In this document: piece by piece, positions 12,341 to 41,500 of the stretch
Numbering within the stretch: the stretch's first letter is position 1
Layout of the letters: the number at the start of each line of letters is the position of its first letter
NCBI RefSeq assembly: GCF_900113925.1
Contig: NZ_FORD01000012.1
Coordinates: 1-64,000, forward strand
DNA: 64,000 nucleotides
From: Nitrosomonas sp. Nm34
GTDB lineage: Bacteria > Pseudomonadota > Gammaproteobacteria > Burkholderiales > Nitrosomonadaceae
Direction: 5' to 3'
Made by a program: the position numbers and the translations under genes
The notes under the pieces: model-generated
What the model was told of the DNA's origin: nothing
Databases searched by the model: none
Seen by the model: the letters and a program-made list of their open reading frames with translations, nothing else

Positions 12341-14017
12341 ATGACTGAACAAAACCTTTCACCTGTTGAACACCTCAAGACTCGCAGTCGAGGATTACGC
12401 GGTACGTTGGCTGAAGGATTGAAGAATCAGCTTACCGGACAGCTTTCGGCGGATGACCAGCAGCTCGTTAAGCATCACGGCATCTACCAGCAAGACGATC
12501 GCGATCGCCGCAGCGAACGCGAGACCAAAAAATTGGAACCGGCTTATTCCTTCATGATTCGCCTGCGCTTGCCAGGTGGTGATATCACACCGCAGCAATG
12601 GCTGGGGTTGCAACCGCTGCTGCATGAGAACACTACCGGTATCCTCAAAATTACTACGCGCCAGACTATTCAGGTGCATGGTGTCGTCAAGTCAAAGCTC
12701 AAGCCCACTTTACAATGGTTTAATAAATATGGGCTTGATACCATCGCCACGTGCGGTGATGTCAATCGCAACGTCATGGCCGGCTCGCACCCCGCCACTT
12801 CTGCATTCCACGAAGAAGTTCATGCGTTTGCAGTTAAAATCAGCGAATACCTGCGACCTAAAACCAAAGCGTATACAGAGGTCTGGCTGGATGGGGAGCG
12901 TCTGGATGAAAATGCTGAGTTAGAACCTGATCCGCTTTACCAGAATCGCTATCTGCCGCGCAAATTTAAAGTGGGTATCGCTATCCCGCCACATAACGAG
13001 ATTGATATTTTTACGCAGGATGTAGGCTTAATTGCCATTGAAGAAAATGGCCGCCTGGCAGGATTCAACGTGACCGTGGGCGGTGGGCTGGGTTGCACTC
13101 ATGGTAACCCGGCTACCTATCCGCGGCTGGCAGATATGCTGGGCTTCATCAAACCAGATCAAGTGTTGGATACGGTGTGGCAGATCGCAGCCGTGCAGCG
13201 CGACAACGGCAACCGCAACGATCGCAGACAAGCCCGTGTGAAATACACCATTGATCATATGGGGCTGGAAGCATTCAAAGCCGATCTGGAAAGCCGCTTG
13301 GGGTTTACACTGGCTGCGCCACGCAGCTTCGCCTTCAACAGCCGTGCCGACTATTATGGCTGGTTGCAAGACCATAAAAACCGCTGGCATTACACGCTGT
13401 TTATCGAAAACGGGCGTGTGGTGGACACACCCGAGTACCGCGCAAAATCAGCGCTGGATGCGATTGCAGCAAGCAACTTATGCAAATTCCGCTTGACCGG
13501 CAATCAAAACATCATGCTGCTGAATATAGCAGCAGAGGATAAGGCAGCGATAGATACGATTCTGGAATCACATGGCATCATTAGAACACAAGCTGCGCTT
13601 ATGCCCATTCGCACCCATGCCATTGCGTGCGTGGCATTGCCGACCTGCCCGCTGGCTCTGGCAGAAGGGCAACGCTATCTGCCCGAACTGCTTAGTAAGG
13701 TGGAGATGCTGCTGGAAAAATATGCGCTCACGCAGGATGAAATCAGCATTCGCATGACAGGTTGCCCGAATGGTTGTGGTCGCCCCTATGTAGCCGAGAT
13801 TGGACTGGTAGGGCGTTCAGTAGGGCATTATGATTTGCGGCTGGGCGGTGATCGCCTGGGCTATCGCCTCAATACCATTTACAAGGAAGGGCTAGACGAG
13901 TTCAGCATCTTGAGTGCACTCGATAGTCTATTGTCAGATTATGCCCGCGAACGCATAGAGAGCGAGACTTTAGGTGACTATTGTCAGCGGCAACTGTTCG
14001 CTAAGACAGTTAGATAA
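12341..14017 (+). CDS. cysI: Sulfite reductase hemoprotein subunit
   Basis: The 558-residue protein (from ATG 12341, MTEQN) carries the siroheme/4Fe4S cysteines in CVALPTC and GCPNGC, plus substrate-site sequence RQTIQVHGV and the GGGLGCTHGN block of the NADPH-dependent family. It reduces sulfite to sulfide in the cytoplasm with CysJ. The longer frame from 12293 adds a non-homologous N-terminus, so the internal ATG is preferred. It lies 87 nt after cysJ and is followed by a terminator, giving a two-gene cysJI unit. No cysH or cysG is adjacent. Confidence 0.9.
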   Translation: MTEQNLSPVEHLKTRSRGLRGTLAEGLKNQLTGQLSADDQQLVKHHGIYQQDDRDRRSERETKKLEPAYSFMIRLRLPGGDITPQQWLGLQPLLHENTTGILKITTRQTIQVHGVVKSKLKPTLQWFNKYGLDTIATCGDVNRNVMAGSHPATSAFHEEVHAFAVKISEYLRPKTKAYTEVWLDGERLDENAELEPDPLYQNRYLPRKFKVGIAIPPHNEIDIFTQDVGLIAIEENGRLAGFNVTVGGGLGCTHGNPATYPRLADMLGFIKPDQVLDTVWQIAAVQRDNGNRNDRRQARVKYTIDHMGLEAFKADLESRLGFTLAAPRSFAFNSRADYYGWLQDHKNRWHYTLFIENGRVVDTPEYRAKSALDAIAASNLCKFRLTGNQNIMLLNIAAEDKAAIDTILESHGIIRTQAALMPIRTHAIACVALPTCPLALAEGQRYLPELLSKVEMLLEKYALTQDEISIRMTGCPNGCGRPYVAEIGLVGRSVGHYDLRLGGDRLGYRLNTIYKEGLDEFSILSALDSLLSDYARERIESETLGDYCQRQLFAKTVR

Positions 14018-14025
14018 ATAAAGCG

Positions 14026-14049
14026 CCCCGCAACAAGCTGCGGGGTATT
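14026..14049 (+). terminator. Intrinsic terminator of cysJI
   Basis: Seven-base stem CCCCGCA/TGCGGGG with loop ACAAGC, followed by TATTT. It starts 9 nt after the cysI stop. Confidence 0.7.
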
Positions 14050-14223
14050 TAACTGTGCGCTTCAATCTGTTAGTTTTCCACTAGCTTTCATCCCCAGGGC
14101 AGGGGAGTAGACTCGTAGAGATTGAAAATTAGAACCAATACCCGGCTTAACGGGAATGATGCATCATTTAATGATATGTAGAAATTCTAAAAAATTTCAG
14201 CAATCGACCCAAACATAGCCTTT

Positions 14224-15567
14224 CTAATTTGACCTGAACATCTGGTTAAACGGCACGTCGAATCTGAGCGGAACCGCTACACTGACAAAATAATCAGGCG
14301 CGCTCTTGGTTAAACCAATACCTGCTATCGTTGAGAAAAATAACCGCCCGGCAAGAATGGAAGAAGCACCGAGTGTAAATATACTACTGATTGCATCGGA
14401 CCCCGGGATTGAGTTACCAAACAACTTGGTGTGATCTATAAAATTTTGTTGTAAGCCCAAACTTAATGAAGTTTGCGGACTAGCGGCAAGCGTGGCACCC
14501 AACGCTAAGCTATACACATCGCCTGGTTCGACATGATCTTTTTTAAAAGATGTCCTGTAACTCACTGTGCTCGTGAAAGCTAACGGATCCTGACGCTTAA
14601 GCGCTGTTACTGAAAAGATCAAATCATTAAAGCTAGTAGGCAAACCTTCAGCTGAAGTATTATTGCGTATTTGTTTGCTGGTATCTGTATCCCAGGTCAC
14701 TCGGCCAATGATATCCGGTAGCCAGCCGGTTTCTCGTAACAAAGTCTTGGCAAGACCGACACGAATATCGCCTAGCATATGAGTAGTATTTTCCGTTTCT
14801 TGATTAGCTACCACAGTAGACTGATTGATCACCCGGGTTGGTATACTAAGTTCTGCCTGAGTCTCGAAAGGCAGACCAAGTCTAAAGAAAACCCCTGCTT
14901 CGATATTATTTTGGCGACTTTGAATATTGGTAGCGGCAGCGATATTACCTGCTGGATCCCTGAGCAAGATAGGTTGCTCATTCTCCAAACGAGCATAATT
15001 CACGAAGGGTTGAATTTCTGCTTGACCAAATGGCAATAGTAATGCTCCTGTCTGAACCAATGTGCGTTCCAAGGCTCTCTCTGCTGCTTCCTCATCTACT
15101 TCGAAACCACCAGGACCTTTTTTGCTTTGTGCCACGGTAGCGGGTGGTATTTTTGTTGCAGCTTCATCAGCTTGAGTCTGGCGAACAGGCTGGTCGCTAG
15201 TAGCTTGAGTGGATGGTGCTGCAGGGGGTTGAGCAGCCAATGCAGACTGAGAGCTCTGCTGCTCTGTTCCTGCAGGTTGGTCGGTAGTCGCTTTGCTTGG
15301 TGGTACTGCAGCGGATTTAGCAGCGGTTGCAGATTCAGAGCTCTGCTGTCCTGCTCCCACGCGCTGTTCCAGTTGCTGAACACGCCGCTGGAGATCTGTA
15401 ATCACCTGATCGCGTTCCTGGAGTTTTATCATGAGTTGATTGACCAATGAGGCTTCCGTTGCCTCTTGCGCCCAGATACGACTGACCGGATTGACAAGAA
15501 AAAGACTGGCGCTCACTAATAAAACCCCTTTAATCCGACTTTTTTTCGATTTATGGATGCTTTTCAT
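14224..15567 (-). CDS. Outer-membrane beta-barrel with N-terminal coiled coil (FapF-like)
   Basis: From ATG 15567 (GGAAGA about 7 nt upstream) the protein is 447 residues. It has a signal peptide to about residue 34 (IWAQ), a heptad-like coiled coil at about 38-70 (LQERDQVITDLQRRVQQLEQ), then a Ser/Ala/Gln/Pro-rich linker made of two imperfect 29-residue repeats (both contain QQSS and DQP), and a C-terminal beta-barrel. This order is that of FapF, the outer-membrane pore of the Pseudomonas Fap amyloid system. A generic barrel transporter is the alternative. It lies downstream of a C39 peptidase and two small secreted proteins on the same strand. Confidence 0.6.
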   Translation of the reverse strand: MKSIHKSKKSRIKGVLLVSASLFLVNPVSRIWAQEATEASLVNQLMIKLQERDQVITDLQRRVQQLEQRVGAGQQSSESATAAKSAAVPPSKATTDQPAGTEQQSSQSALAAQPPAAPSTQATSDQPVRQTQADEAATKIPPATVAQSKKGPGGFEVDEEAAERALERTLVQTGALLLPFGQAEIQPFVNYARLENEQPILLRDPAGNIAAATNIQSRQNNIEAGVFFRLGLPFETQAELSIPTRVINQSTVVANQETENTTHMLGDIRVGLAKTLLRETGWLPDIIGRVTWDTDTSKQIRNNTSAEGLPTSFNDLIFSVTALKRQDPLAFTSTVSYRTSFKKDHVEPGDVYSLALGATLAASPQTSLSLGLQQNFIDHTKLFGNSIPGSDAISSIFTLGASSILAGRLFFSTIAGIGLTKSAPDYFVSVAVPLRFDVPFNQMFRSN

Positions 15568-15921
15568 TACTCGTCTTCCGGTTTTAAGCAAAAAAATCAC
15601 ACAAAGTTCAATACAGCTAAGCTCCAGATTTTTATCATACCAATATTTTTTTATCATATATATACAAATACCCATTACCGAGAAATTATTTTTGCTCGAG
15701 AGTGAATGCTTTCTGAGTAATGAGTATCTGTATAAAATAGAGTCTTGAAAAGCCAATACCTATCTACTCAACTAATCCTAATCCGGGCACATTCAAATCA
15801 ATAGATTATGTACGCAGAGCTTTAACAGTTTTGCCACTAAATCGATGTTAAAATTTGTTACTTTATGATAAATATAAATTTTACGCGCATCACTTCCCAA
15901 GACACTCGTAATGCTTGCAAT

Positions 15922-16557
15922 TTATCGTAACATAACAAACTCCTCTGCTCTTGGTTTAAGCAGATTAGACGTGGGAACACCATCAGTCCGGGCGACTACG
16001 AAACCGACTCTACCGATTTGCGGAAAATTTATCCATGCATTTTCGAATTGCTCGATCAACAACGTGCGGTTACCCCATGCTGGATCGGCAAGTAATACAC
16101 GATTGCCTTTTATTCCCCGAAAAATAACAAAATGGTTATATCCCAACAAATTGACAGGAACAATAATAGGCGCATTCTTTACTAAATCATCAAGCGTGAG
16201 CTTGCCATAGCCGATGCCCTCATAGCCACGTTTATCGGCATAGCGTTTTAAATCAAGTATGGAAAATCCCTGACGAATATTGACCAGTTGAGGATTCTTT
16301 ATGTATTCCTCCCGCGTCATCAGCATTTTCGCTACCTGTTTCTCGGTAACCATATCATCATGCTGAAAATTTAGCAAAGTCGTTAACGCAGCAGCGCCGC
16401 AGCTAAGATCCCATTTCTGCACAACTACATTTTCCCGGCGCATTTCAAAAAGAGATTTAACTGTTCTCGCATGCGCCAGATCCGCAATACTTATAGTCAG
16501 AGTAACAATACAGATTAATCTTAAGGCTACAGGATAAATGGATTGAAATAGTTGCAT
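15922..16557 (-). CDS. Secreted C39-family (double-glycine) peptidase, FapD-like
   Basis: From ATG 16557 (AGGAG at a 7-nt distance) the protein is 211 residues. A Sec signal peptide ends near ADLAHA, so the enzyme acts in the periplasm. The C39 catalytic set is present: Gln47 (oxyanion), Cys53 in WDLSCGAAAL, His132 in GYNHFVIFRG and Asp148 in LLADPAWG. C39 domains cleave leader peptides after Gly-Gly or Gly-Ala, usually as part of ABC exporters. This one is free-standing, as is FapD of the Fap system. Three proteins with a candidate motif are encoded next to it. Confidence 0.75.
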   Translation of the reverse strand: MQLFQSIYPVALRLICIVTLTISIADLAHARTVKSLFEMRRENVVVQKWDLSCGAAALTTLLNFQHDDMVTEKQVAKMLMTREEYIKNPQLVNIRQGFSILDLKRYADKRGYEGIGYGKLTLDDLVKNAPIIVPVNLLGYNHFVIFRGIKGNRVLLADPAWGNRTLLIEQFENAWINFPQIGRVGFVVARTDGVPTSNLLKPRAEEFVMLR

Positions 16558-16799
16558 CCGCATTTCTCCTCTTTTTATCAAGCTGTAATTTCTGGCAAAC
16601 GATCTGAATGTTATGTTCATGCTTTGTCTCACTGACGCTGGGTTTAAAGGGAACAGATAGCGCGCGGTAAATTAATGCCAGCAGAAGCGAGAGTTGCTCG
16701 CCCTATACTGTAATTTTTCCCGCCCACATGTTTGCTGTTATGTAATCTTTGCGTGTTATCAGCTTCAATATTGAGACTGCTGCAAGCTTTACTAGCTCA

Positions 16800-17231
16800 C
16801 TAATGGGGCGGAATGTCGATCGCAATAACCGTTATACGTTCAGTTGAGCTAGAAAATGTCGGAGTGCTTATATCATGTCCATTGCTATGTGCGATCACTT
16901 TGTCCCCCTGAGCAGCATACGCAGTCTGGACATCGGTATAGGAGCTCGAGCCGCAGCAGGCGAGAGCGTTCCCGGAACCTTTTCCTATCAGAACATTGCC
17001 TGGCGGTGTGCTCTTGATAAATGTCGAGGTGCTGGTAGAGGTATACGCATTGGGGCTGTCTGCTGCGGCAACGGCGCCAACTCCTACGGCCAAGTAGGAA
17101 CCCGCTGTGGCCGCATCCATCTGTGCGTCCGTCAGTCTCACCGGTTCCCCCGCCCATAGTGTTGCCGACTTTACCAGGGCAGTGAAAATCACGACATTAA
17201 GTACCGGACGTAAATGCAACGTTGTGCTCAT
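16800..17231 (-). CDS. Small secreted protein A with double-glycine-like motif
   Basis: A 143-residue protein with GGAGGGAA upstream of ATG 17231. It has a signal peptide cleaved near LWA/GEP, then RLTDAQMDAATAG (residues 32-44), the motif shared with the proteins at 17460 and 18198. The mature part is low in charge and rich in Ser, Thr, Ala, Gly and Val (TSTSTSTF, IGKGSG) and contains ACCGSS. I infer a substrate of the neighbouring C39 peptidase, perhaps a fibre subunit or signal peptide. The C-terminus is IDIPPH. Confidence 0.65.
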   Translation of the reverse strand: MSTTLHLRPVLNVVIFTALVKSATLWAGEPVRLTDAQMDAATAGSYLAVGVGAVAAADSPNAYTSTSTSTFIKSTPPGNVLIGKGSGNALACCGSSSYTDVQTAYAAQGDKVIAHSNGHDISTPTFSSSTERITVIAIDIPPH

Positions 17232-17459
17232 AATTTCTTCCCTCCATAATTCTGTTAGAGTGTTTCAGAATGTTTTGCGTTAGTAATAATTCCTAACAGG
17301 TAAGTGCGAACATGCTCGTGACAGCAGTTCCTTGTCTGAAATCACGCCGCAAAAAGAACTTAACGATTCCTTTGACGCTACCAGGAGTTCTTTGCCTCTA
17401 AGTTTAACGGGTGTGAGCTCTGGCAGCAGACCTAAATTAATGCATATTTTGGATTGGGT

Positions 17460-17747
17460 CTAATGTGGTGTAGGAGGAACAGCCACCACACTGGTAGATG
17501 TACTGTCCGCACCACAACAGGAGACCGATATCACGATTCCCTCAGCGGGGGTTTTCGAAAAACTGGTAGAATGACTTGATCCGATGCCGGATGCGTCGAT
17601 GTTAACCGTTACGCTGCCGCCGCTAATGTTATCCATCTGTGCTTCTGTCAGTTTCATAGATTCTGACTGCTTAGTAACTGTTGGTTCTGCTTGAGCGATG
17701 GAAGCCATCGCAGTAAAGGCTAAACATAAAAGAAAGGCTGTTCTCAT
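17460..17747 (-). CDS. Small secreted protein B with double-glycine motif
   Basis: From ATG 17747 (AGGAG about 8 nt upstream) the protein is 95 residues. A signal peptide ends at AQA/EP, followed by KLTEAQMDNISGG (residues 32-44), a near-classical double-glycine sequence. The rest is Ser/Thr/Val-rich with SVSCCGADS, resembling protein A, and ends PPTPH against IPPH in A. The two are paralogues on one strand, 229 nt apart, leading into the C39 peptidase gene. An upstream extension to 17834 lacks signal-peptide logic and was dropped. Confidence 0.65.
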   Translation of the reverse strand: MRTAFLLCLAFTAMASIAQAEPTVTKQSESMKLTEAQMDNISGGSVTVNIDASGIGSSHSTSFSKTPAEGIVISVSCCGADSTSTSVVAVPPTPH

Positions 17748-18197
17748 CAATCTTCTCCTAAAAATGTTAAATAAAGTATGTAACACCATTTCTGCCTCTA
17801 CCTTGCGCCCGGTGTTTTCCCCAGTTTGCTGCAAGTATTAGATGAAGCTAGAATTCATAAATTTAATACATTGGCTTTATTCTGAGGATTCTATTTTAGT
17901 TGTATATGAACTACTACTTTTGATGGAGCAGGCATCAATGACGAGGCAATGTCACTGAAGAGTTAGTCAGAATACGTGTCTCAAGTGGCATGCAAGAAGT
18001 ATTACCCTATTCATAGTACTCCTATTGGCATATCGATATTCACCTTAAGTTGATTAAACGATTTACGGATTGGCGAGATCAGGCGAGAGAATCATACTTT
18101 GTCTCATCCGGCTACATTAAAACTCGCGGGAATGCTCGAGCAAATGGCCGGTCTCGAGGTAAGTGCCCGTCAATCATATTTACATTAGGAGAACATC
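17748..18197. other. Divergent intergenic region between small secreted proteins B and C
   Basis: It should contain promoters for both directions. I see no confident sigma-70 or sigma-54 site by eye. Ribosome sites mark both edges. Confidence 0.4.
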
Positions 18198-18587
18198 ATG
18201 AACTTTAAAATGAAAATGACTTCTTTACTTGCTAGTGTAGCTTTACTTGCTGGTGCAGGTATTGCCAATGCACAGGAACCTCTGCGCTTGAGCGAAACCT
18301 CTATGGATAACATCACGGCTGGTACCTTTAATTATCCTACGTTCACCTCGAATGTATCCAAAGATTGGAATCTCTCTGATTATAGTTACATTGGCGCAAA
18401 AACTAATATTATTAGTGATCCGTATATCAAAGATATGACAGCACATGCAGAGGCTCAGGCAGGCTGTCAGGCGGGTACTACCTGCCTGGCTACAGGCGGC
18501 GCTATAACCCAAACGGGAGATTACTATCACCCAACACTATCCATTAGCACAAGCACCTCCTCTTCTTCCGGATACCCTCACTACTAA
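18198..18587 (+). CDS. Small secreted protein C with double-glycine-like motif
   Basis: A 129-residue protein with TAGGAGAA upstream of its ATG. A signal peptide ends at ANA/QEP, then RLSETSMDNITAG (residues 30-42) aligns with the motif in proteins A and B. The mature region is neutral, rich in Thr, Ser, Tyr and Ala, with paired Cys (GCQAGTTC) and a Ser/Thr run near the C-terminus (STSTSSSSG). It is divergent from the other four genes and followed by its own terminator, so it may be separately expressed. Confidence 0.65.
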   Translation: MNFKMKMTSLLASVALLAGAGIANAQEPLRLSETSMDNITAGTFNYPTFTSNVSKDWNLSDYSYIGAKTNIISDPYIKDMTAHAEAQAGCQAGTTCLATGGAITQTGDYYHPTLSISTSTSSSSGYPHY

Positions 18588-18675
18588 TATTTGGGGATGG
18601 AATCAATTTGCCTTTCACCGCAGAACGACTATTGCTGAAGTAGCTGTGGCTTAAGGCAAGCTGAGTAGGTTGTTA

Positions 18676-18705
18676 AGCCTCATGTCATTGGCATGGGGCT
18701 ATTTT
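18676..18705 (+). terminator. Intrinsic terminator of small secreted protein C
   Basis: Nine-base stem AGCCTCATG/CATGGGGCT (one G-U pair) with a 7-nt loop, followed by ATTTT, about 90 nt past the stop of the gene at 18198. Confidence 0.65.
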
Positions 18706-19706
18706 CATACTGCCAGTTACAGGGTAAAAATAGGTTCAGCGGATATGAGGTTGCAGTTCTGAGTGGATGGCAGCAGTAAGGATTGACTCAACCTCATGTT
18801 CTTACAATGGGTCAAGGAAGGAGCAGGTGGCCTGCGAGCTACCGCCTGCAGGATGAGTACAAAACCGGATAACTGGATTTTAAAGTAACTGCAGGAACGA
18901 TGGGGTAGTAACCTTAAGCTGGACTAGCTGGGACTCAAAAAGCTAAAATCTGCGTAGCTTATTCTCGAGGAAAAGCTGACTATGAAATTGCTTACCGAAT
19001 GATATAAAGCGAAATTGCTTGACGTGCTTTCCTGCTAAGAAAAAATGATTATTTTATTATCAGCCTCTTGCTGGATGCTTGCTACGCCAAGTGACATGTC
19101 CAGCTTTCTGAATTCCCGCCACATCAAGATCTTCGATTGTGCCGAAGTATTTGCTGACCCTTGATGTAAACGTATACGCCCATGCGCATATGGGGGACTG
19201 ATGCGTAGGATATATCTAAGAATCACGTCAGCAGATTACACATTCGCAGAAAAGACTTGATTACCAGAGTGAATAGTATAAGACGGCCACAGCATTCGGT
19301 GATGTTAATCTTATGGCTTGACTAGGGCACTGCTAAGCAAGGGCTGCTCTGGCCGGATTTGGTCGCTAGGGTAATATAAATAGTGAAGCTGGTGGAAGCA
19401 ACAGTAGTAGCCCGCTTGGCAGCGGCTTCTAAGATCTGCAGAAATCGCTGATTTTGACTAAACCCCAAAACCCCCTCAGATTTATTGGTTGAGTGGGCTA
19501 CGGAACGAATTTTACTAGGAATGGACTAGGTGCTCGAAATATTGAGCTTCAGGGCCTTATCTATAATCAGCTGCGGAAAATCCCTTGGCCTTAACGCTAG
19601 GAATGGTTTGATGAATGCAGCGCCGGCTCGATATGCGCTTTGATGTTTCCTCTTTCTTGCTCTCTCACTAATTCCAGCCCTTCCGCAAACTAACCATAAC
19701 AGATAT
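18706..19706. other. Long gene-poor stretch
   Basis: Only short frames with poor ribosome sites occur (for example 19035-19226 leftward). Many stops in all frames suggest decayed sequence, but no transposase motif could be recognised. Confidence 0.4.
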
Positions 19707-20405
19707 TCAATGTTCCATGCTGCTTATTTGAGAAGCAAGAAAAGCTGCATGAGTACGATTGGTTGCCTTAAGCTTTGCCATAATCTCTCTCACATGAACC
19801 TTCACGGTACACTCTTGCATTCCGAGCTCATAAGCAATAAATTTATTTGACTTACCTTGCCGCATAAGCTCGAACACCTCCAATTGTCGCGATGTAAAGG
19901 TCCGCAAGACTGCTGGATCAACCTTGCCACCGTTCGGGCGCTCCTCTGCGATGGGCTTTGTGGCTTTTTCGATTATCTCCAAAAGAGCCTTAGATGGAAT
20001 AATCGAGCCACCTGAGATGACAAGTCGAAGTGAGTGGATTATCTTGGCCGGGTTGAAGGTCGATGAGATGTAGCCGCGGACTCCGATTTGAATAGCATCC
20101 AGAATATCAGCAAGCTCATCGCGATCAGAAAGAAGTACTAAAGGCGAGTCGGGATGCTTGTGTTTCAGCTGTTGAATTCCGTTAGAAATATGATGCTCGC
20201 TGACGCGGACTGCACCAAGATTAATGAGGATCATTTCTATTTTATAGGGAGGTTCCAGATAATCGGCCACGAACTCATCGATTCCCGGATAAGATAAGAT
20301 AACAAAATCATCTGAAAGTGTTGTTAGCAGATGTGAGATGGACATCCGCGTCAACGGCCGTGAATCAATCAGTGCTACTCCGATCTTATTTGTCTTTTCA
20401 CACAT
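19707..20405 (-). CDS. LuxR/NarL-type response regulator with degenerate receiver
   Basis: From ATG 20405 the protein is 232 residues. The N-terminal half has the receiver fold, but the phospho-acceptor position reads ILINLG (Asn62 where Asp is usual), the acidic pocket is reduced to one Asp (ALIDSRP) and the conserved Lys is replaced in GYISS. The C-terminal helix-turn-helix is a good LuxR domain (TSRQLEVFELMRQGKSN, then ECTVKVHVREIMAKL). It probably binds DNA without classical phosphorylation, as CsgD-type regulators of surface fibres do. It may control the 14.2-18.6 kb locus (inference from proximity). Confidence 0.75.
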   Translation of the reverse strand: MCEKTNKIGVALIDSRPLTRMSISHLLTTLSDDFVILSYPGIDEFVADYLEPPYKIEMILINLGAVRVSEHHISNGIQQLKHKHPDSPLVLLSDRDELADILDAIQIGVRGYISSTFNPAKIIHSLRLVISGGSIIPSKALLEIIEKATKPIAEERPNGGKVDPAVLRTFTSRQLEVFELMRQGKSNKFIAYELGMQECTVKVHVREIMAKLKATNRTHAAFLASQISSMEH

Positions 20406-20961
20406 AATGCTTATCTCTAATAAAATAAGCACTCTTTAATACCAACAGTAATTTATCGGCTAAGTATTGCTCAGTGTTATTTATCTCATAATTAATATTA
20501 TTCTCTTGGCTATGAGTATTTACCATTTTTTTCTCTCCTCTCCCACACTCACTATTGATTATATGAGGTCCAATATTAATCTCAGGTCGAGCTGAAATTG
20601 TTCATGCTATTAGAAAATACTGAATGAAAATTTTTTACTTTAATTATTTCAGTACACATTCTCGATGCTTAGCAACTGCTGTTCTTGAGTTACCTCGGCC
20701 GTAAAAGCCATATGTAATTTCTAGTTGACATCACTATTTCTTGATGGCAATATTTATTGCAAAGAGCAGTAGAAATAGCGTAGTAAAATTAGAAAAAAAT
20801 GGTAACAAGAGACCCTTCGGGCCTGTTCCCTTTTCTTCATCAAGACTCACTGTAATTTTAATCTCACTACACTCAGGTCATCCTTATTATTTAGAAGACT
20901 TCATGCATCATACCAAGGTACACGAAATATTCTGATTAAAATCAATCGAGTTTAATAATTA

Positions 20962-20993
20962 AAATTCTAAGGAAGTGAAATTCTAAGGAAGTG
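20962..20993. repeat. Perfect 16-bp tandem duplication
   Basis: AAATTCTAAGGAAGTG is repeated twice head to tail with no gap. Confidence 0.9.
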
Positions 20994-21006
20994 CAAAGTG
21001 AGTGCG

Positions 21007-21033
21007 CAATAATGCAATTGCATACAATTTAAT
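21007..21033. repeat. CAATAATRCAATTGCATACAATTT element, first occurrence
   Basis: CAATAATGCAATTGCATACAATTT is nearly identical to the sequence at 36515-36540 upstream of a GH114 gene. A looser relative lies at 41641-41661. It contains the palindrome TGCAATTGCA. Confidence 0.6.
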
Positions 21034-21589
21034 ATAAATTTCAGCTAGAGCTAGAGCCATGAATCACTAGTTTGTTAATTCCAACTGAGCTGCTCGGCTT
21101 TCGAAATCAAGGGGAGCGAAACTTTGTATTCATCATCACAATAGAGCAATAACTCTCCCTTAATATCGTATCGCGCGCTTTTATGAAATTTGAAATAAGA
21201 GATAGCAGCTTGGGATAGTGTGGGTTAATAAAGCGAATGGTGGTTCGGACCGAATTCAATACAACTATGATTTGCCATAATCTGGCAGCATATTTCATAT
21301 TGCGACGGATTATCTTATCGGCTTGCACATTCCGTACGTCTAATAGGATCGATTAAGTCAAGCGCTATTCAGTCTATGAATCGGCAAGATAAATGGCGTT
21401 TAGATAGATCCAATAACAACCGCGGGTTCAATATCAAACCAAGCAGGAATGCCCGTTTTTACTTTTCAAGCATTGCTCCTAAATCAAATTAAGGTTTCTG
21501 CTTATTATAATTTTATCTAAAAAAGAATAATTTTTGATTCAAACAGGTGGAATTTGAAGTTACTAACATAATGTGAATTGCGAGCTGAA

Positions 21590-22530
21590 AAGGAGCAGTT
21601 CACCAATAATGTTAAAGTATTACGGAAGACATCATCCAATCTCAATCAACCAAAGTCATGAATGAGCCGGCAGGCCCGAGTCATAACGATTGATCTCTAT
21701 GTTTTAAGGATTATCAGAGAAAGCTTTGGCTTTATAGTCAAAGAGTGAGCCATTACGCGGATTCAAGCTTTAGTGACGAAAAAGTAACCGTACTCTGCCT
21801 GTTCGGTGTGGTAGGCAAGCATAGAGCGGATCAATGGTATTGATGAGCATACGGATCGTCATTAACGCGCTTGGTTTGCCTGACTTCCGAGTGATGGGAA
21901 TTATATTCAGTGCCGGAACCGGCTAGTCGATATGCTTGCACCCTTGTAGTGCTGATTCAGCAGGAGCGCGAGCCAGGGCAAGCCTGGCCTAATCAATTCA
22001 TTGCCGGTAGTCCCGTGGCCAGGCAAAGCCATTGGTTTAACACGTGTGTAGCGAAACAGTTGGCGAATTCAGGTAACTGCTCAACCAAGAAGTTGTACTA
22101 TCATGGTGTGCAGAGCTCACATATGAGGGCCGTCAATCAGACTCATTACCTCTCCCTGCATACATCGGCGTGAGTAGCGTCGCAGTCACGATGGTAAGAT
22201 ATTTGATCAGATTCGGCTATAATTGCACGACAGTGAACTGTGTGGCGATAGAGCTTGTTAATGACGCGGCGCGGAGAGGTCAGACAAGCCCGTAATCCGA
22301 CCGTCTAAACATTGGCTAAAAATATAGAGGGCAGCACTATCTGGAAATACAGGATAAATCGTTGCTGTAGCGGTCTCGCGCGTTCGACAACCGGTTGAAG
22401 CGATTTGCCTTGATTGAAGAAAAGATAGGCCTTGGAATATACCCAGAAAGAAAGTTTGTTCTTATAAGGGAGTTGTGGTACATGCATTCGGAAAGCTGGC
22501 TGTGGCTTTGTTTTTTTCTGGAATTTTTAC
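21590..22530 (+). pseudogene. Decayed DDE transposase of an IS4/IS982-like element
   Basis: Scattered frames give blocks in the correct order: FSDEKVTVLCLFGVV near 21770, SPVARQSHWFNTCVAKQLAN then STKKLYYHGV near 22000-22105, HDGKIFDQIR near 22190, and AVSRVRQPVEAI with VVVHAFGKLAVALFF near 22370-22520. These correspond to a roughly 300-residue DDE transposase that contains STKKLYYYGV. Several frameshifts and stops separate the blocks. The exact IS family is uncertain. The ends were not resolved. Confidence 0.6.
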
Positions 22531-22599
22531 GAGTTAGCTCTTAATGCACATGCCAGTTAAACTATCTCTTTTAGCTGGGGTACCCAAATAGATTGGACC

Positions 22600-22690
22600 A
22601 ATCACTTAATTTCGCCGGTTTTTCCTTGTCTTATTTTTCAGACTGCCTACGGTTCGCCTTTCTGCCATATCTGATTTGGAAACGGAATTA
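22600..22690 (+). repeat. 105-bp palindromic repeat, copy 4 (degenerate)
   Basis: The core CCGGTTTTTCCTTG and CTGCCTACGGTTCGCC and the right end TGATTTGGAAACGGAATTA are recognisable. The left inverted repeat is largely lost. It ends about 25 nt before the start of the N-formylglutamate amidohydrolase gene. Confidence 0.6.
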
Positions 22691-22715
22691 TTAAAAGACA
22701 AGCTGAGAAGAAAAA

Positions 22716-23423
22716 TTGGCCTTAACAACTCATTTTGTCATTAGCTGCGAACATGGTGGTAACCGTATCCCGACTCAGTACCGCCATCTATTTCATGGAT
22801 TTGAGGTTTTATTGTATAGTCATCGGGGCTATGATCGTGGGGCATTGCGCATGGCAAGAGATCTGGCTCAGTTATTGCACGCTTCCTTGTTTGTATCGAC
22901 TACTAGTCGTTTGCTGATCGATCTTAACCGCTCTATTGGCCATCCGCAATTATTCTCCGATGCGACCAAAAATACATCGACTACTATTCGGCGAGAGATT
23001 CTGGTACGCTATTATCTGCCTTATCGTAATCAGGTCGAGCAAACTATTGCTGAAGTAATAAATAGGAAAAACCGCCAAGTCATTCATATTTCTTCACATA
23101 GTTTTACGCCTGTGCTTGATGGAGAGGTACGTCACGCTGATATCGGTCTTCTTTATGATCCATCGAGACTGGGAGAACGTAATTTATGCTATCGTTGGCA
23201 GGCATGCCTCAAAGCAAAAGGACCCGATTTAACCATTCGGCGTAATTATCCGTATGCTGGTAAAGCGGATGGCTTAACGACTTACTTGCGTCGTCAATTT
23301 CCAGAGGAGGCGTATTGGGGAATCGAGTTGGAAATCAACCAGAAACATGTTGCTAATGGTAGACAGCACTGGCAGGCGCTGCGTCATTTAGTGCTGCAAA
23401 CTCTCCATGATGTGGTGGGATGA
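22716..23423 (+). CDS. N-formylglutamate amidohydrolase family protein
   Basis: The 235-residue protein has ISCEHGGNRIP, SHRGYDRGA, TSRLLIDLNRS and HISSHSFTPV, the blocks of the N-formylglutamate amidohydrolase fold with its metal-binding His and Glu. It would hydrolyse N-formylglutamate or a related N-acyl amino acid. No histidine-degradation genes are adjacent, so the true substrate is uncertain. The start is TTG with a weak AGAAG ribosome site, directly after a degenerate repeat copy that may hold its promoter. Confidence 0.8.
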   Translation: MALTTHFVISCEHGGNRIPTQYRHLFHGFEVLLYSHRGYDRGALRMARDLAQLLHASLFVSTTSRLLIDLNRSIGHPQLFSDATKNTSTTIRREILVRYYLPYRNQVEQTIAEVINRKNRQVIHISSHSFTPVLDGEVRHADIGLLYDPSRLGERNLCYRWQACLKAKGPDLTIRRNYPYAGKADGLTTYLRRQFPEEAYWGIELEINQKHVANGRQHWQALRHLVLQTLHDVVG

Positions 23424-35249: not shown

Positions 35250-36365
35250 TCAAAAACAACTAAATCGTTGACTATCATCTAAATCTTTTGACAGAATCAA
35301 GGTGCTGAATTGTGCACCCTTAGAAGAATCACAAAGCGCCTGACGCTCAACTGGATTATCTAAATAGCTTTGTTGATATTCTGCATTGAATACAGGTTTG
35401 CCGTTTGCAATAAAGCCGGTTAGCATATTACATTCATGGAACTCATGACATTGTTCATTAACACTAAAGTCAAAATAATTAATTAAATCAGGGGTTTGTT
35501 CCATATCATTTTTAAGCCCAACCGACAATCCTCTTTTATGTGCTTCATTGGCAATAAACTTATTAAATGCCAGCTGATCCCTGGCGCTTATATCAAAGCC
35601 GGAATTATTGGCATACGCATCCATATTATCTGGTTCCACGCCATCACACCCTTTTAGCAGAGCCAAGTTAAGACGTGAGATCATGATCTCCGCTACATTG
35701 TGTGAACGAATATCAAGCCACCGCTCATCCGGCTTATCGACTAAAGTATTGCCCAATTCAGCAGCTTTGAATTTATCTTTATCTTCTCTAGAATCTTCAA
35801 AGCTACCTGCCGAGAAATAACAGATGACCTTCTTGCCAGAAGCTTTGAGTGTATTAATCAAGGATGGGGAAGAATTAAATAGATCAATATCATAAAGTTT
35901 AACCGGGTGATTTGTATTGACTTCACCTTTCAGCTGCCATTGCCAGGTGGTTGCAACAGGAGGTTTGTACCAATCACCGGTAACAGGTGGTGCATCAGGA
36001 TCAAGTAAGGGTGCTTTAGAAAGAATAAATAATTCAATATTGGAGAAATCGCTGCTATTTGTATCATTATGTGCTTTTACCGCAACAATGAAAGCCGCGC
36101 CATCCCATAATTCGATTGAACCGGATGTGGTGTTACCCATGTCAACACTTTTAATGCTTTCGGGTCCGGTAAAAGGAAAAGGCGCATAAAATAACTGATA
36201 ACCACTGGCATTTGGAACTGAAGACCATGTAACGGATACCTTGGTGCCATCTTGCGTCACTAAAATAGCAGGTGGCTTTAGTTCATCCGCTAAGGCAAGG
36301 CTGCTATTAATTAATAGAAGAAAAAGCATCAATACGATTTGCATGACATTATTATTTGTGCGCAT
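35250..36365 (-). CDS. GH114-type glycosidase with N-terminal Fn3-like domain, copy 1
   Basis: The 371-residue secreted protein has a signal peptide (to about ALA, residue 26), an Fn3-like domain (about 30-115; VTWSSVPNASGYQLFY) and a GH114 TIM-barrel (LYDIDLFNSS, KVICYFSAGSFE, GCDGVEPDNMDAY, FSVNEQCHEF, FNAEY). The family includes endo-alpha-1,4-polygalactosaminidases that cut biofilm polysaccharides. Acidic residues in CDGVEPDN and the NEQC block fit the active site. A close paralogue lies at 40355. The enzyme could remodel an own or foreign galactosaminoglycan. Confidence 0.8.
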   Translation of the reverse strand: MRTNNNVMQIVLMLFLLLINSSLALADELKPPAILVTQDGTKVSVTWSSVPNASGYQLFYAPFPFTGPESIKSVDMGNTTSGSIELWDGAAFIVAVKAHNDTNSSDFSNIELFILSKAPLLDPDAPPVTGDWYKPPVATTWQWQLKGEVNTNHPVKLYDIDLFNSSPSLINTLKASGKKVICYFSAGSFEDSREDKDKFKAAELGNTLVDKPDERWLDIRSHNVAEIMISRLNLALLKGCDGVEPDNMDAYANNSGFDISARDQLAFNKFIANEAHKRGLSVGLKNDMEQTPDLINYFDFSVNEQCHEFHECNMLTGFIANGKPVFNAEYQQSYLDNPVERQALCDSSKGAQFSTLILSKDLDDSQRFSCF

Positions 36366-37409: not shown

Positions 37410-38294
37410 TTAACCTTCTGCAGCGATAACGTTATCCCAGGTGGGCGGTTGGCCTACCAGCGTAATCGATATATGCTCGCCAAAGTTGACGATGAAAGTA
37501 TCAACCTCAATAGTGATATTGGTAATATGACTAGCGATCTCTCCACGAGTTAAGCCATACTCAGTGAAATCGAGCATATCGCCTTCCTGTCCATTATAGT
37601 TGTCAATTTTCCAGTGGCCCTTGTCATGGAAGACAAAATGGTCTGCGCCTTCTTCCCCATGGCAATTGTCCCCTGGGCGTGCGTCGACATGTTTATATTT
37701 ACCACCATGGTCATTGCCATCTTTATTATTGCCACCATGATCATTACCAGCTTGATTATTACTGCCCTGGTTATTGCTAGCCTGATGATTACTGCCCTGG
37801 TTATTACTAGCTTGGTTATTACCACCATGGTCATTGCCATCTTTATTATTGCCACCATGGTCATCGCTACCTTGGTTTTTGCCGTCATGGTCATTACTGC
37901 ATTGATCATTTCCACCATGGCCTTTGTCACTCTGGCTATTATCACTGTGGTCTTTACCGCCAGGCCCACCATTCATTCCACCGGCTTCATGGCTATCATG
38001 TTTATGGTCATCATGTTTATGGCTCTCATATTTATGGGTATCAGATCCTTTATCACTAGACCCACCATCTTTATGACCATCATTTTCATGGTGATCATTT
38101 CCTTGACGATCTTTTCCTTGACGATCATATCCTTCTCGATCGTACCCTTTCCGATCGTATCCTTCTCGATCATATCCTTCTTGATCATACCCTGGCCGAT
38201 CATATCCTTTTTGATCATACCCTGGTCGATCATATCCTTTTTGATCATATCCTTGTGCATCATATTCTTTTTGTTGTTCATTGCTAGCACTCAT
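37410..38294 (-). CDS. YDxxG pentapeptide-repeat protein with RTX-like C-terminus
   Basis: The 294-residue protein (AAGGAG upstream) has no signal peptide. Residues 11-60 are ten tandem YDxxG pentapeptides, with variants to residue 65. Residues 66-220 are extremely hydrophilic, built from Asn, Asp, Gly, His, Lys and Gln with repeated HGGNN, QGSNN and DGNDHGG units. The last 70 residues are an ordered domain (DHFVFHDKGHWKIDNY, GDMLDF) like the C-terminal region of RTX/serralysin proteins, which carries a type I secretion signal. I infer a secreted, metal- or calcium-binding disordered protein. The long open frame on the opposite strand is an artefact of the repeats. Confidence 0.7.
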   Translation of the reverse strand: MSASNEQQKEYDAQGYDQKGYDRPGYDQKGYDRPGYDQEGYDREGYDRKGYDREGYDRQGKDRQGNDHHENDGHKDGGSSDKGSDTHKYESHKHDDHKHDSHEAGGMNGGPGGKDHSDNSQSDKGHGGNDQCSNDHDGKNQGSDDHGGNNKDGNDHGGNNQASNNQGSNHQASNNQGSNNQAGNDHGGNNKDGNDHGGKYKHVDARPGDNCHGEEGADHFVFHDKGHWKIDNYNGQEGDMLDFTEYGLTRGEIASHITNITIEVDTFIVNFGEHISITLVGQPPTWDNVIAAEG

Positions 38295-40354: not shown

Positions 40355-41500
40355 TCAAAAACAGCTAAATCGCTGACTATCATCTAAATCTCTTGACAGA
40401 ATCAAGGTGCTGAATTGTACTCCCTTAGAAGTATCACAAAGCGCTTGGCGCGCAGCCGGGTTGTCAATATAACTTTGCAGATATTCTGCATTTAACACAG
40501 GCTTGCCGTTAATAATAAAGTGGGTCAGCGAATCACACTCGTTTAACTCATGACATCGCTCATTAATACTAAAGTCGAAAAAATCGATTAATTCAGGAAT
40601 TTGTTCCATATTATTTTTAAGCGCAACCGACAATTCCCTTTTATGGGCTTCATTGGCAATAAACTTATTAAATGCCAGCTGATCCCTGGCGCTTAAATCA
40701 AAGCCGGAATTATTTGCGTAGACATTCACATTATCCGGTTCCACGCCATCACAGCCTTTTAGCAGAGCCAAATTTAGCCGTGAGATCATGATCTCTGCTA
40801 CATTTTGTGAACGAATATCAAGCCATCGTTCCTCTGGCCAATCAATCAAAGTATTACCTAATTCCTCAGGCTTAAATTTATCCTTATCTTCTCTATAATT
40901 TTCATAAGTGCCTGCTGAGAAATAACAGATGACCTTCTTGCCAGAAGCTTTGAGTGTGTTAATCAAGGATGGAGAAGAATTAAATAAATCAATATCATAA
41001 AGCTGAGCTGGATAACTTGTATTGATTTCATTGATCTCATTGATTCCATCATCTTCTATTGCTTTTTTCAACTGCCATTGCCAAGTTATAGCTACAGGCG
41101 GTTTGTACCAATTACCGGTAACCGGTGATGCTTCAGGATCAAGTAACGGCGCTTTAGAAAGTATAAATAGTTCAATGTTGGAGTAATCGCTACTACCCGC
41201 ATCATTAAGTGCTTTTACCGCAACAATAAAGGCAGCCCCATCCCATAACTCAATTGAGCCAGATGTGACGTTGCCCATGGCAACATTTTTGATGCTTTCT
41301 GATCCGGTAAAAGGAAAAGGTGTATAAAATAACTGATAACTGCTGGCATTTAAAACTGGAGACCAAGTAATGGATATCTTCGTGCGGTCTTGCGACAATA
41401 CAATAAGTGGTGGCTTTGGTGGTTCTGCTAAAGCAAGACTACTTTCCAATAGAAGAAAAAGTGTCAGCATGAGTAGTATGACAATATTATTTATCCACAT
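40355..41500 (-). CDS. GH114-type glycosidase with N-terminal Fn3-like domain, copy 2
   Basis: This 381-residue protein is a close paralogue of the gene at 35250 over its whole length: signal peptide, Fn3-like domain (ITWSPVLNASSYQLFY), GH114 barrel (KVICYFSAGTYE, GCDGVEPDNVNVY, FSINERCHEL, LNAEY) and the same C-terminus (DDSQRFSCF). It carries a short acidic insert (IEDDGINEINEINTS) between the domains. Both copies probably have the same secreted polysaccharide-cleaving role with diverged specificity. Upstream sequences of the two genes also show partial similarity, so the duplication included the promoter region. Confidence 0.8.
   Translation of the reverse strand: MWINNIVILLMLTLFLLLESSLALAEPPKPPLIVLSQDRTKISITWSPVLNASSYQLFYTPFPFTGSESIKNVAMGNVTSGSIELWDGAAFIVAVKALNDAGSSDYSNIELFILSKAPLLDPEASPVTGNWYKPPVAITWQWQLKKAIEDDGINEINEINTSYPAQLYDIDLFNSSPSLINTLKASGKKVICYFSAGTYENYREDKDKFKPEELGNTLIDWPEERWLDIRSQNVAEIMISRLNLALLKGCDGVEPDNVNVYANNSGFDLSARDQLAFNKFIANEAHKRELSVALKNNMEQIPELIDFFDFSINERCHELNECDSLTHFIINGKPVLNAEYLQSYIDNPAARQALCDTSKGVQFSTLILSRDLDDSQRFSCF

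Follow-up and report, generated by a model that had tools for sequence, protein, structure and literature searches.

In the 64,000-nucleotide stretch of Nitrosomonas sp. Nm34 examined here (contig NZ_FORD01000012.1, positions 1 to 64,000; hereafter, the window), a locus encodes three small exported proteins, a free-standing C39 peptidase, and an outer membrane barrel. We propose that these genes form a dedicated export apparatus for small proteins, which acts in two steps and uses two N-terminal tags in series, a reading to which we assign a probability of roughly 0.75. The small proteins (substrates 1 to 3) would cross the inner membrane via Sec and lose their signal peptides, so that a short double-glycine leader would then form the N terminus. 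The periplasmic C39 peptidase may then bind this leader through positions -12, -8, -7, and -4 and cut after AG or GG in the periplasm. Mature cargo would exit through the barrel, whose FapF fold is predicted and whose role is taken from that of FapF; its coiled coil, on the periplasmic side, and its plug helix probably serve as a gate. A LuxR-type regulator would control expression, probably without phosphorylation. We propose the cleavage step because the leader agrees with a published consensus, the catalytic set is intact, and the genes co-occur. The models for export and cleavage are FapF, PCAT1, and the FapD peptidase, which carries a Sec signal and whose cysteine is needed (PMC5557850).

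In each small protein of the window, the signal peptide gives way to a 12-residue leader of the form L[TS]xx[QES][ML]Dx[VIA][TS][AG]G, which matches in register the double-glycine leader read by cytoplasmic C39 domains. The consensus given for PCAT leaders is L(-12)xxxE(-8)L(-7)xxxxG(-2)G(-1), with residues -10 to -4 helical (PMC6959990). All five consensus positions recur here, most often with Q in place of E and A in place of G. Across 48 motif-bearing proteins from 17 of 20 loci (the window and 19 related loci described below), M or L at -7 and G-1 are universal (48 each), L-12 is present in 47, V or I occupies -4 in 46, A-2 is found in 45, and Q or E occupies -8 in 40; of these positions, the search pattern itself had left only -8 and -4 free. 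A leader profile was built from 28 N termini chosen for variety out of at least 48, the three from the window included. Against the 3.8-Mb host genome (G000), it returned three strong matches, all at this locus (E = 1.4e-14 to 4.0e-12); the following four were weak (E = 0.14 to 0.65). In the structure model of substrate 1, the sole helix spans residues 35 to 41, which are leader positions -10 to -4 (moderate confidence, block means of 64 and 76), and the mature part is modeled as six beta strands (block means of 88 to 97 over residues 51 to 140) with no relative in the PDB at E = 0.001 (best, 0.019). A match of substrate 2 to an NCBIfam pheromone model over the leader (VP1, E = 8.4e-4, 19.5 versus 85 bits) and its weak Pfam matches (E > 0.05) were dismissed as leader likeness or noise.

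Beyond the leader, the proteins differ widely. Two neighboring genes at one locus (L042) encode identical signal and leader segments ahead of mature parts that are 35% alike, and over 56 within-locus pairs the mean identity is 57% for the leader, a figure inflated by the search pattern, and 26% for the mature part. One pair (L047) shows the reverse, with 85% identity in the mature part and 75% in the leader. Ten substrates picked for a CC pair, among them the two window substrates that have one, align around that pair. As judged from these sequences, the leader is the constant part of the system and the cargo its variable part.

The peptidase matches Pfam C39 (PF03412, E = 1.1e-14) and has a signal peptide. 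Its best NCBIfam models are FilB (E = 3.4e-30, 105.3 bits, cut-off 475) and FapD (E = 1.2e-24, 86.9 bits, cut-off 330), and its nearest solved relative by profile is a double-glycine-motif protease domain (6mpz, E = 1.6e-8). The catalytic positions Gln47, Cys53, His142, and Asp158 are invariant in all 20 aligned sequences and correspond to the PCAT1 set Q15, C21, H99, and D115 (PMC6959990). The barrel matches NCBIfam FapF (NF058560) at 2e-7 (30.2 bits, cut-off 700), and FilC is absent from its NCBIfam matches up to E = 1. An alignment of barrels from 17 of the 20 loci, window included (those of L045 and L054 are partial and L053 is without one), was searched as a profile against PDB sequences and retrieved solely FapF at E = 0.01 (best, 3.5e-19). 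The AlphaFold2 model (mean predicted local distance difference test score, 75.1) comprises a signal peptide, a coiled-coil-like helix at residues 38 to 80, a low-confidence linker, a plug-like helix at 159 to 172, and long strands numbering about 12. FapF accounts for each of its 18 top-ranked PDB neighbors (best E = 1.1e-17; target TM, 0.78), after which comes the COG4313 channel. The window barrel is thus predicted to combine the coiled coil, plug helix, and 12-strand barrel of the FapF fold.

These results bear out the first-pass annotation of this DNA, which had described the small exported proteins at the coordinates found here, the free-standing periplasmic C39 peptidase, and a coiled-coil barrel with a repeat in its linker, which is real. 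It had also named FapD and FapF as the nearest known pair and held that the idea would fail if the peptidase and barrel best matched unrelated families; the best profiles are FilB and FapD for the one and FapF for the other, all related and all short of their cut-offs. On the minus strand, the order of transcription is substrate 2, substrate 1, C39, and barrel, with substrate 3 divergent, and a purine-rich stretch precedes each of the five genes (Table 1).

Table 1. Features of the proposed secretion locus in the window and, in the last row, candidate graspetide pairs elsewhere
Feature	Positions	Strand	Basis
Outer membrane barrel, predicted FapF fold	14224-15567	minus	signal peptide, predicted fold, profiles
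Imperfect tandem repeat in barrel linker	15186-15357	minus	2 x 85 nt, 76% identical
Free-standing C39 peptidase with signal peptide, 211 aa	15922-16557	minus	Pfam and NCBIfam matches
Small substrate 1 (putative), 143 aa, CC pair, Ser/Thr-rich mature part	16800-17231	minus	leader profile, structure model
Leader 12-mer LTDAQMDAATAG of substrate 1	17100-17135	minus	predicted cleavage after G44
Small substrate 2 (putative), 95 aa, CC pair	17460-17747	minus	leader profile
Leader 12-mer LTEAQMDNISGG of substrate 2	17616-17651	minus	motif pattern and leader profile
Small substrate 3 (putative), 129 aa, divergent	18198-18587	plus	leader profile
Leader 12-mer LSETSMDNITAG of substrate 3	18288-18323	plus	motif pattern and leader profile
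LuxR-type regulator (probable), receiver-like domain	19707-20432	minus	GerE, weak Response_reg, homologues at relatives' loci
Candidate graspetide pairs	L049 6395-7798; L051 2457-3772; L117 4682-6164		leader protein plus ATP-grasp

The 19 related loci were collected by scanning genome contigs with two peptide patterns taken from the C39 alignment alone. By their record labels, which are unchecked and belong mostly to metagenome-assembled genomes (MAGs), they come from alpha-, beta-, and gammaproteobacteria: Methylobacter, other Methylococcales, Crenothrix, a Thiotrichales MAG, a Nitrococcus MAG, Granulosicoccaceae, Burkholderiaceae, and Nitrosomonas NMNS01; among the alphaproteobacteria, Defluviicoccus, Geminicoccaceae, Minwuiaceae, Rhodospirillales, and Qipengyuania. 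The C39 proteins of L049 (labeled Nitrococcus) and L051 (labeled Alphaproteobacteria) are nearly identical. A barrel adjoins C39 at 18 of the 19 loci (two are partial at contig ends; at L053 the contig stops). Over all 20 loci, 46 open reading frames (ORFs) combining a signal peptide with the motif lie within 3.5 kb of C39 (125,882 bp) and 2 lie beyond it (142,846 bp), at distances of 3.6 and 5.0 kb; five triplet-shuffled versions of the same loci contained none. At least one such ORF is present at 17 of the 20 loci, and L049 holds six motif-bearing genes. The loci had been found with C39 alone, yet the substrates cluster near it.

In a genome survey, relatives of the barrel were detected at 1e-10 in 40 of 369 sampled genomes of the class, and the substrate profile, scored here and in the phylum sample below on at most 20 candidates per genome, matched at 1e-4 in four (G000, G196, G307, and G232). 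These same four hold the closest barrels of the 40, and C39, barrel, and substrates are all present at the loci of the three other than the host; small proteins without the machinery, which the first-pass annotation had held would undo the idea, were not seen in this sample. In the genome with the fifth-best barrel (G214; L120 88-5517), C39 is less closely related, and some larger proteins, including one of 601 aa, also contain leader-like motifs; the size of the cargo may therefore vary. Among 398 genomes of the phylum sample, 36 contain a barrel relative and the host alone has a substrate match over the motif; two matches outside the host were confined to the part of the model that represents the signal peptide (positions 2-27 and 2-30) and are not regarded as substrates. 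Taken together, these surveys support the linkage without measuring its strength.

Within the genus, a close C39 match (67%) was found in only one of 36 other Nitrosomonas genomes (G010), followed by a barrel (51%); the substrates are not visible there because the sequence breaks off within C39. The barrel of this relative is followed by a 180-aa exported protein with SIDSLRGD (L021 10565-11107), possibly a cargo without the canonical leader. Eight of the 36 genomes have a C39 match at 1e-25 to 1e-27 that is part of an operon type we label Fap/Fil-like. One Methylobacter MAG carries new-type and Fap/Fil-like C39 systems side by side (L041 6206-12467).

A maximum-likelihood tree was built from 53 C39 sequences; its 24 rows of the new type fall on one side of a branch with support of 97/86, but when the distant L120 is left out, the branch of the remaining 23 is supported at only 88/57. 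On the opposite side are 8 FapD sequences above their cut-off, 9 C39 sequences below it, and 12 Fap/Fil-like rows. Some branches of the tree are long, those of L120 and L129 in particular. It includes no FilB above its cut-off, and five C39 domains of ABC transporters were collected but excluded from it. Between two Methylobacter loci (L043 and L044), ratios of nonsynonymous to synonymous substitution are 0.13 for C39, 0.16 for the barrel, and 0.18 to 0.53 for four substrates, so these behave like real genes under constraint.

Several observations weigh against a two-tag secretion system. Gaps of 228 to 450 bp separate the five window genes and substrate 3 is divergent; there is therefore no tight operon. 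The leader ends in AG instead of GG in 45 of the 48 motif proteins. No substrate was found at L054, where a glycosyltransferase gene lies upstream and the contig stops within the barrel, or at L055, whose contig starts within C39; at L058 a motif ORF appears solely when the signal filter is dropped. In G196, roughly 2.1 Mb separate one gene with the leader from C39. The surveys are not independent, since pattern and profile were built from C39-adjacent substrates, the window's included, and few candidates were scored. In 13 of the 19 relatives' stretches there is no close homologue of the regulator. The role suggested for the cargo derives from composition and from one model unmatched in the PDB, and we infer, from the models named above, Sec export, AG/GG cleavage, barrel exit, and control by the regulator.

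As the first-pass annotation had stated for the window, the cargo is Ser/Thr rich: the 48 mature parts average 13.7% Ala, 12.7% Ser, 11.7% Thr, and 10.4% Gly. Their mean net charge is -1.1, with 18 of 48 at -3 or below and 6 at +3 or above. Because it is non-basic and rich in Ala, Ser, Thr, and Gly, a role at the cell surface or in the biofilm matrix is weakly favored over that of a cationic membrane-active peptide. We tentatively regard the cargo as beta-structured proteins for one of these two sites, at slightly less than even odds; antagonism and signaling are the alternatives. Proteins with tetratricopeptide repeats and a Glyco_transf_41 domain (O-GlcNAc-transferase-like) are encoded near three C39 loci (L048 3854-6139, L054 236-2320, and L027 1033-3342), and glycosylation of Ser/Thr-rich cargo is possible.

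Four other explanations were considered. The locus may be a diverged functional-amyloid operon, its small proteins being fibre subunits whose polymerization at the surface starts when the leader is removed. Such an origin would fit the FapF-fold barrel, the FapD/FilB-related peptidase, the beta-predicted cargo rich in Ser, Thr, Ala, and Gly, and the presence of Fap/Fil-like C39/barrel operons in the same genus and, at L041, beside the new type. However, the window has no exported ORF of FapB or FapC size and its small proteins are free of internal repeats, in line with the earlier statement that FapB/FapC-like amyloid repeats are absent; C39 and barrel score far under the family cut-offs; C39 falls on its own side of the tree branch (24 rows, 97/86); and cargos of one locus resemble each other in little but the leader (mean 26%, 56 pairs). 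We regard an amyloid operon as doubtful while still giving it appreciable weight. That the C39 protein is instead a chaperone or gate for the barrel, with the motif an uncut docking site, has a precedent in certain type I systems, where inactive C39-like domains act as chaperones for the substrate (PMC5557850). The four catalytic positions are nevertheless invariant in 20 of 20 sequences, and secretion of FapC requires the FapD cysteine (PMC5557850), which makes a docking role quite improbable.

An island like nap of the gonococcus, in which C39 and a FapF-like channel export bacteriocins or toxic or self-lysing peptides, would account for the same gene pair beside several small double-glycine proteins (PMC11798529), and the leader/cargo cassettes resemble those of bacteriocins. 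By published account, the Nap peptides form alpha helices and are cationic, whereas the mature parts here average a charge of -1.1 with only 6 of 48 at +3 or more, and the single modeled cargo is beta; nor was an immunity or holin gene recognized, by eye among the window ORFs and by profile for the six proteins scanned. We consider this explanation unlikely. A chance neighborhood of unrelated genes, to which the divergent substrate 3 and the gaps of 228 to 450 bp might point, is contradicted by the recurrent linkage and the co-occurrence at genome level. We reject it on the 46 versus 2 ORFs, their absence from the shuffles, the confinement of the host-genome profile matches to the locus, and the class survey, and leave it a negligible probability. 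We retain the two-step, two-tag system as the preferred interpretation.

The LuxR-type gene (Table 1) adds to the gene list of the first-pass annotation. Its product matches GerE (E = 1.4e-17) and weakly Response_reg (E = 2e-5), and close homologues (1e-21 to 1e-52) are present at 6 of the 19 relatives' loci; weaker LuxR matches at L044 (1.4e-7) and L057 (6.9e-6) were not counted as locus regulators. In an alignment of seven regulators read by eye, Asp is absent from the usual acceptor segment (LINLG). The gene probably regulates the locus. No Rfam match was found at positions 13000-22800 of the window, and predicted promoters and terminators were uninformative (10 and 6 versus 13.5 and 5.4 in shuffles). 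Short repeats common to the intergenic stretches were checked and gave no convincing regulator site. Searches of plasmid and phage records returned distant C39 matches alone (81 and 2 records), all below 60% identity. Elsewhere in the window, a repeat protein of 294 aa is encoded between two exported proteins that resemble each other (35250-36365, 37410-38294, and 40355-41500).

A related tag may be present in canonical fap loci. FapD exceeded its curated cut-off in 8 of 15 genomes searched, which represent one family and include some near-copies. Presumed FapE proteins were identified by position beside FapD at six of these loci and, with a pattern from those six, at L126 and L127. Behind the signal peptide, they carry LKDxE[LM]AxLRG[RK] at seven of the eight loci (L121-L128) and VPEHELAEMRGR at the other. 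With R/K placed at -1, a register assigned by hand, this stretch has a hydrophobic residue at -12, E-8, L/M-7, L/M-4, and G-2. The presumed FapE leader is, from this likeness, a candidate FapD site, and it bears on the question of the FapD substrate: the authors of the FapF structure describe the FapD target as unclear, the Fap proteins as lacking canonical C39 sequences, and the periplasmic C39 class as uncharacterized (PMC5557850). FapE alone is reported there as fully processed at its N terminus, in agreement with such a leader. A presumed FapA (L141 6562-6999) holds LSDGDFASVASG, which is near the leader register, at this one locus.

The leader also occurs on a different kind of protein. 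At L049 and L051 and in G196, VTTMALGEEGG and a short tail form the C terminus of a protein with the leader, and a gene for a RimK-like ATP-grasp protein comes next (candidate graspetide pairs, Table 1). Relative to that of L051, the other two ATP-grasp proteins are 89% and 51% identical; the best peptide-maturase model is TIGR04187 (2e-21, below its cut-off). Among 312 genomes of the class, this subfamily was found at 1e-30 in G196 alone, where the pair lies about 2.1 Mb from the C39/barrel locus, and the window's own genome had no match to it at that threshold. The extract of the graspetide source does not mention a Sec route for precursors (PMC8939145).

From these cases, we give balanced odds to a more general proposal, namely that proteobacteria have an ABC-free "Sec plus double-glycine" export route in which a transferable N-terminal double tag would take unrelated small proteins and, in some genomes, peptides modified by ATP-grasp enzymes (candidate graspetides) through a periplasmic C39 peptidase and a FapF-fold pore; the Fap types would be specialized branches whose FapE-like proteins keep the tag. 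Should this hold, FapE would be named as the FapD substrate, cut after G-[RK]. The canonical leader directly behind a Sec signal in 48 proteins allows a recognition rule to be proposed for the periplasmic C39 class, and for FapE as well. Tag, peptidase, and pore would together make up a compact export module whose cargo can be exchanged and which nitrifiers, methanotrophs, and other bacteria share. The locus is well suited as a model for the substrate choice of periplasmic C39 peptidases.

Among known systems, fap loci have the order fapABCDEF, with FapB of 196±14 aa and FapC of 377±143 aa (PMC3792158). They share with the window a C39 protein with a Sec signal and a FapF-fold barrel with coiled coil and plug, whereas the window has several interchangeable small substrates, a C39 on a separate branch, and scores of 86.9 of 330 bits for FapD and 30.2 of 700 bits for FapF. 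No NCBIfam Fap subunit was matched by the proteins scanned, with the presence of FapB/FapC models in NCBIfam not checked. The Fap/Fil-like operons of the genus (for example, L022) likewise contain C39, a barrel, and small exported proteins, which carry leader-like ..DEEL..LRGGF and ..EELDxATGREG stretches, but in them an exported Asn/Thr-rich protein of 339 to 508 aa stands first and C39 belongs to the other branch. In L022, the sole such operon scanned, C39 scores 136 bits for FapD and 124 for FilB, and the barrel 148 for FapF and 65 for FilC, all below the cut-offs. The FilB/FilC "putative pilus system" of NCBIfam supplies the best NCBIfam match of the window C39, which nonetheless reaches only 105 of 475 bits; Acinetobacter records were among the matches. 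Plain membership in Fap or Fil was rejected because C39 and barrel lie below the FapD, FapF, and FilB cut-offs and FilC is unmatched.

The Neisseria nap island (NapP, NapF, and NapABC) has the same gene set as the window, namely C39, a FapF homologue or FapF-related channel, and several small double-glycine proteins, and is set apart by its description: cationic helical peptides, which the cargo here does not resemble, autolysis, and a phase-variable regulator (PMC11798529). Export of class II bacteriocins and microcins by PCATs shares the double-glycine leader consensus and the C39 catalytic set, but the window peptidase is free-standing with a signal peptide of its own, the leader sits behind a Sec signal, and no ABC transporter was recognized in the locus or fused to C39. 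No description of the system was found in open-access papers, nor did five exact leader strings or ALGEEGG occur in any. We conclude that the locus represents a new version of the hybrid C39/FapF-type secretion machinery, scoring below the curated Fap and Fil cut-offs.

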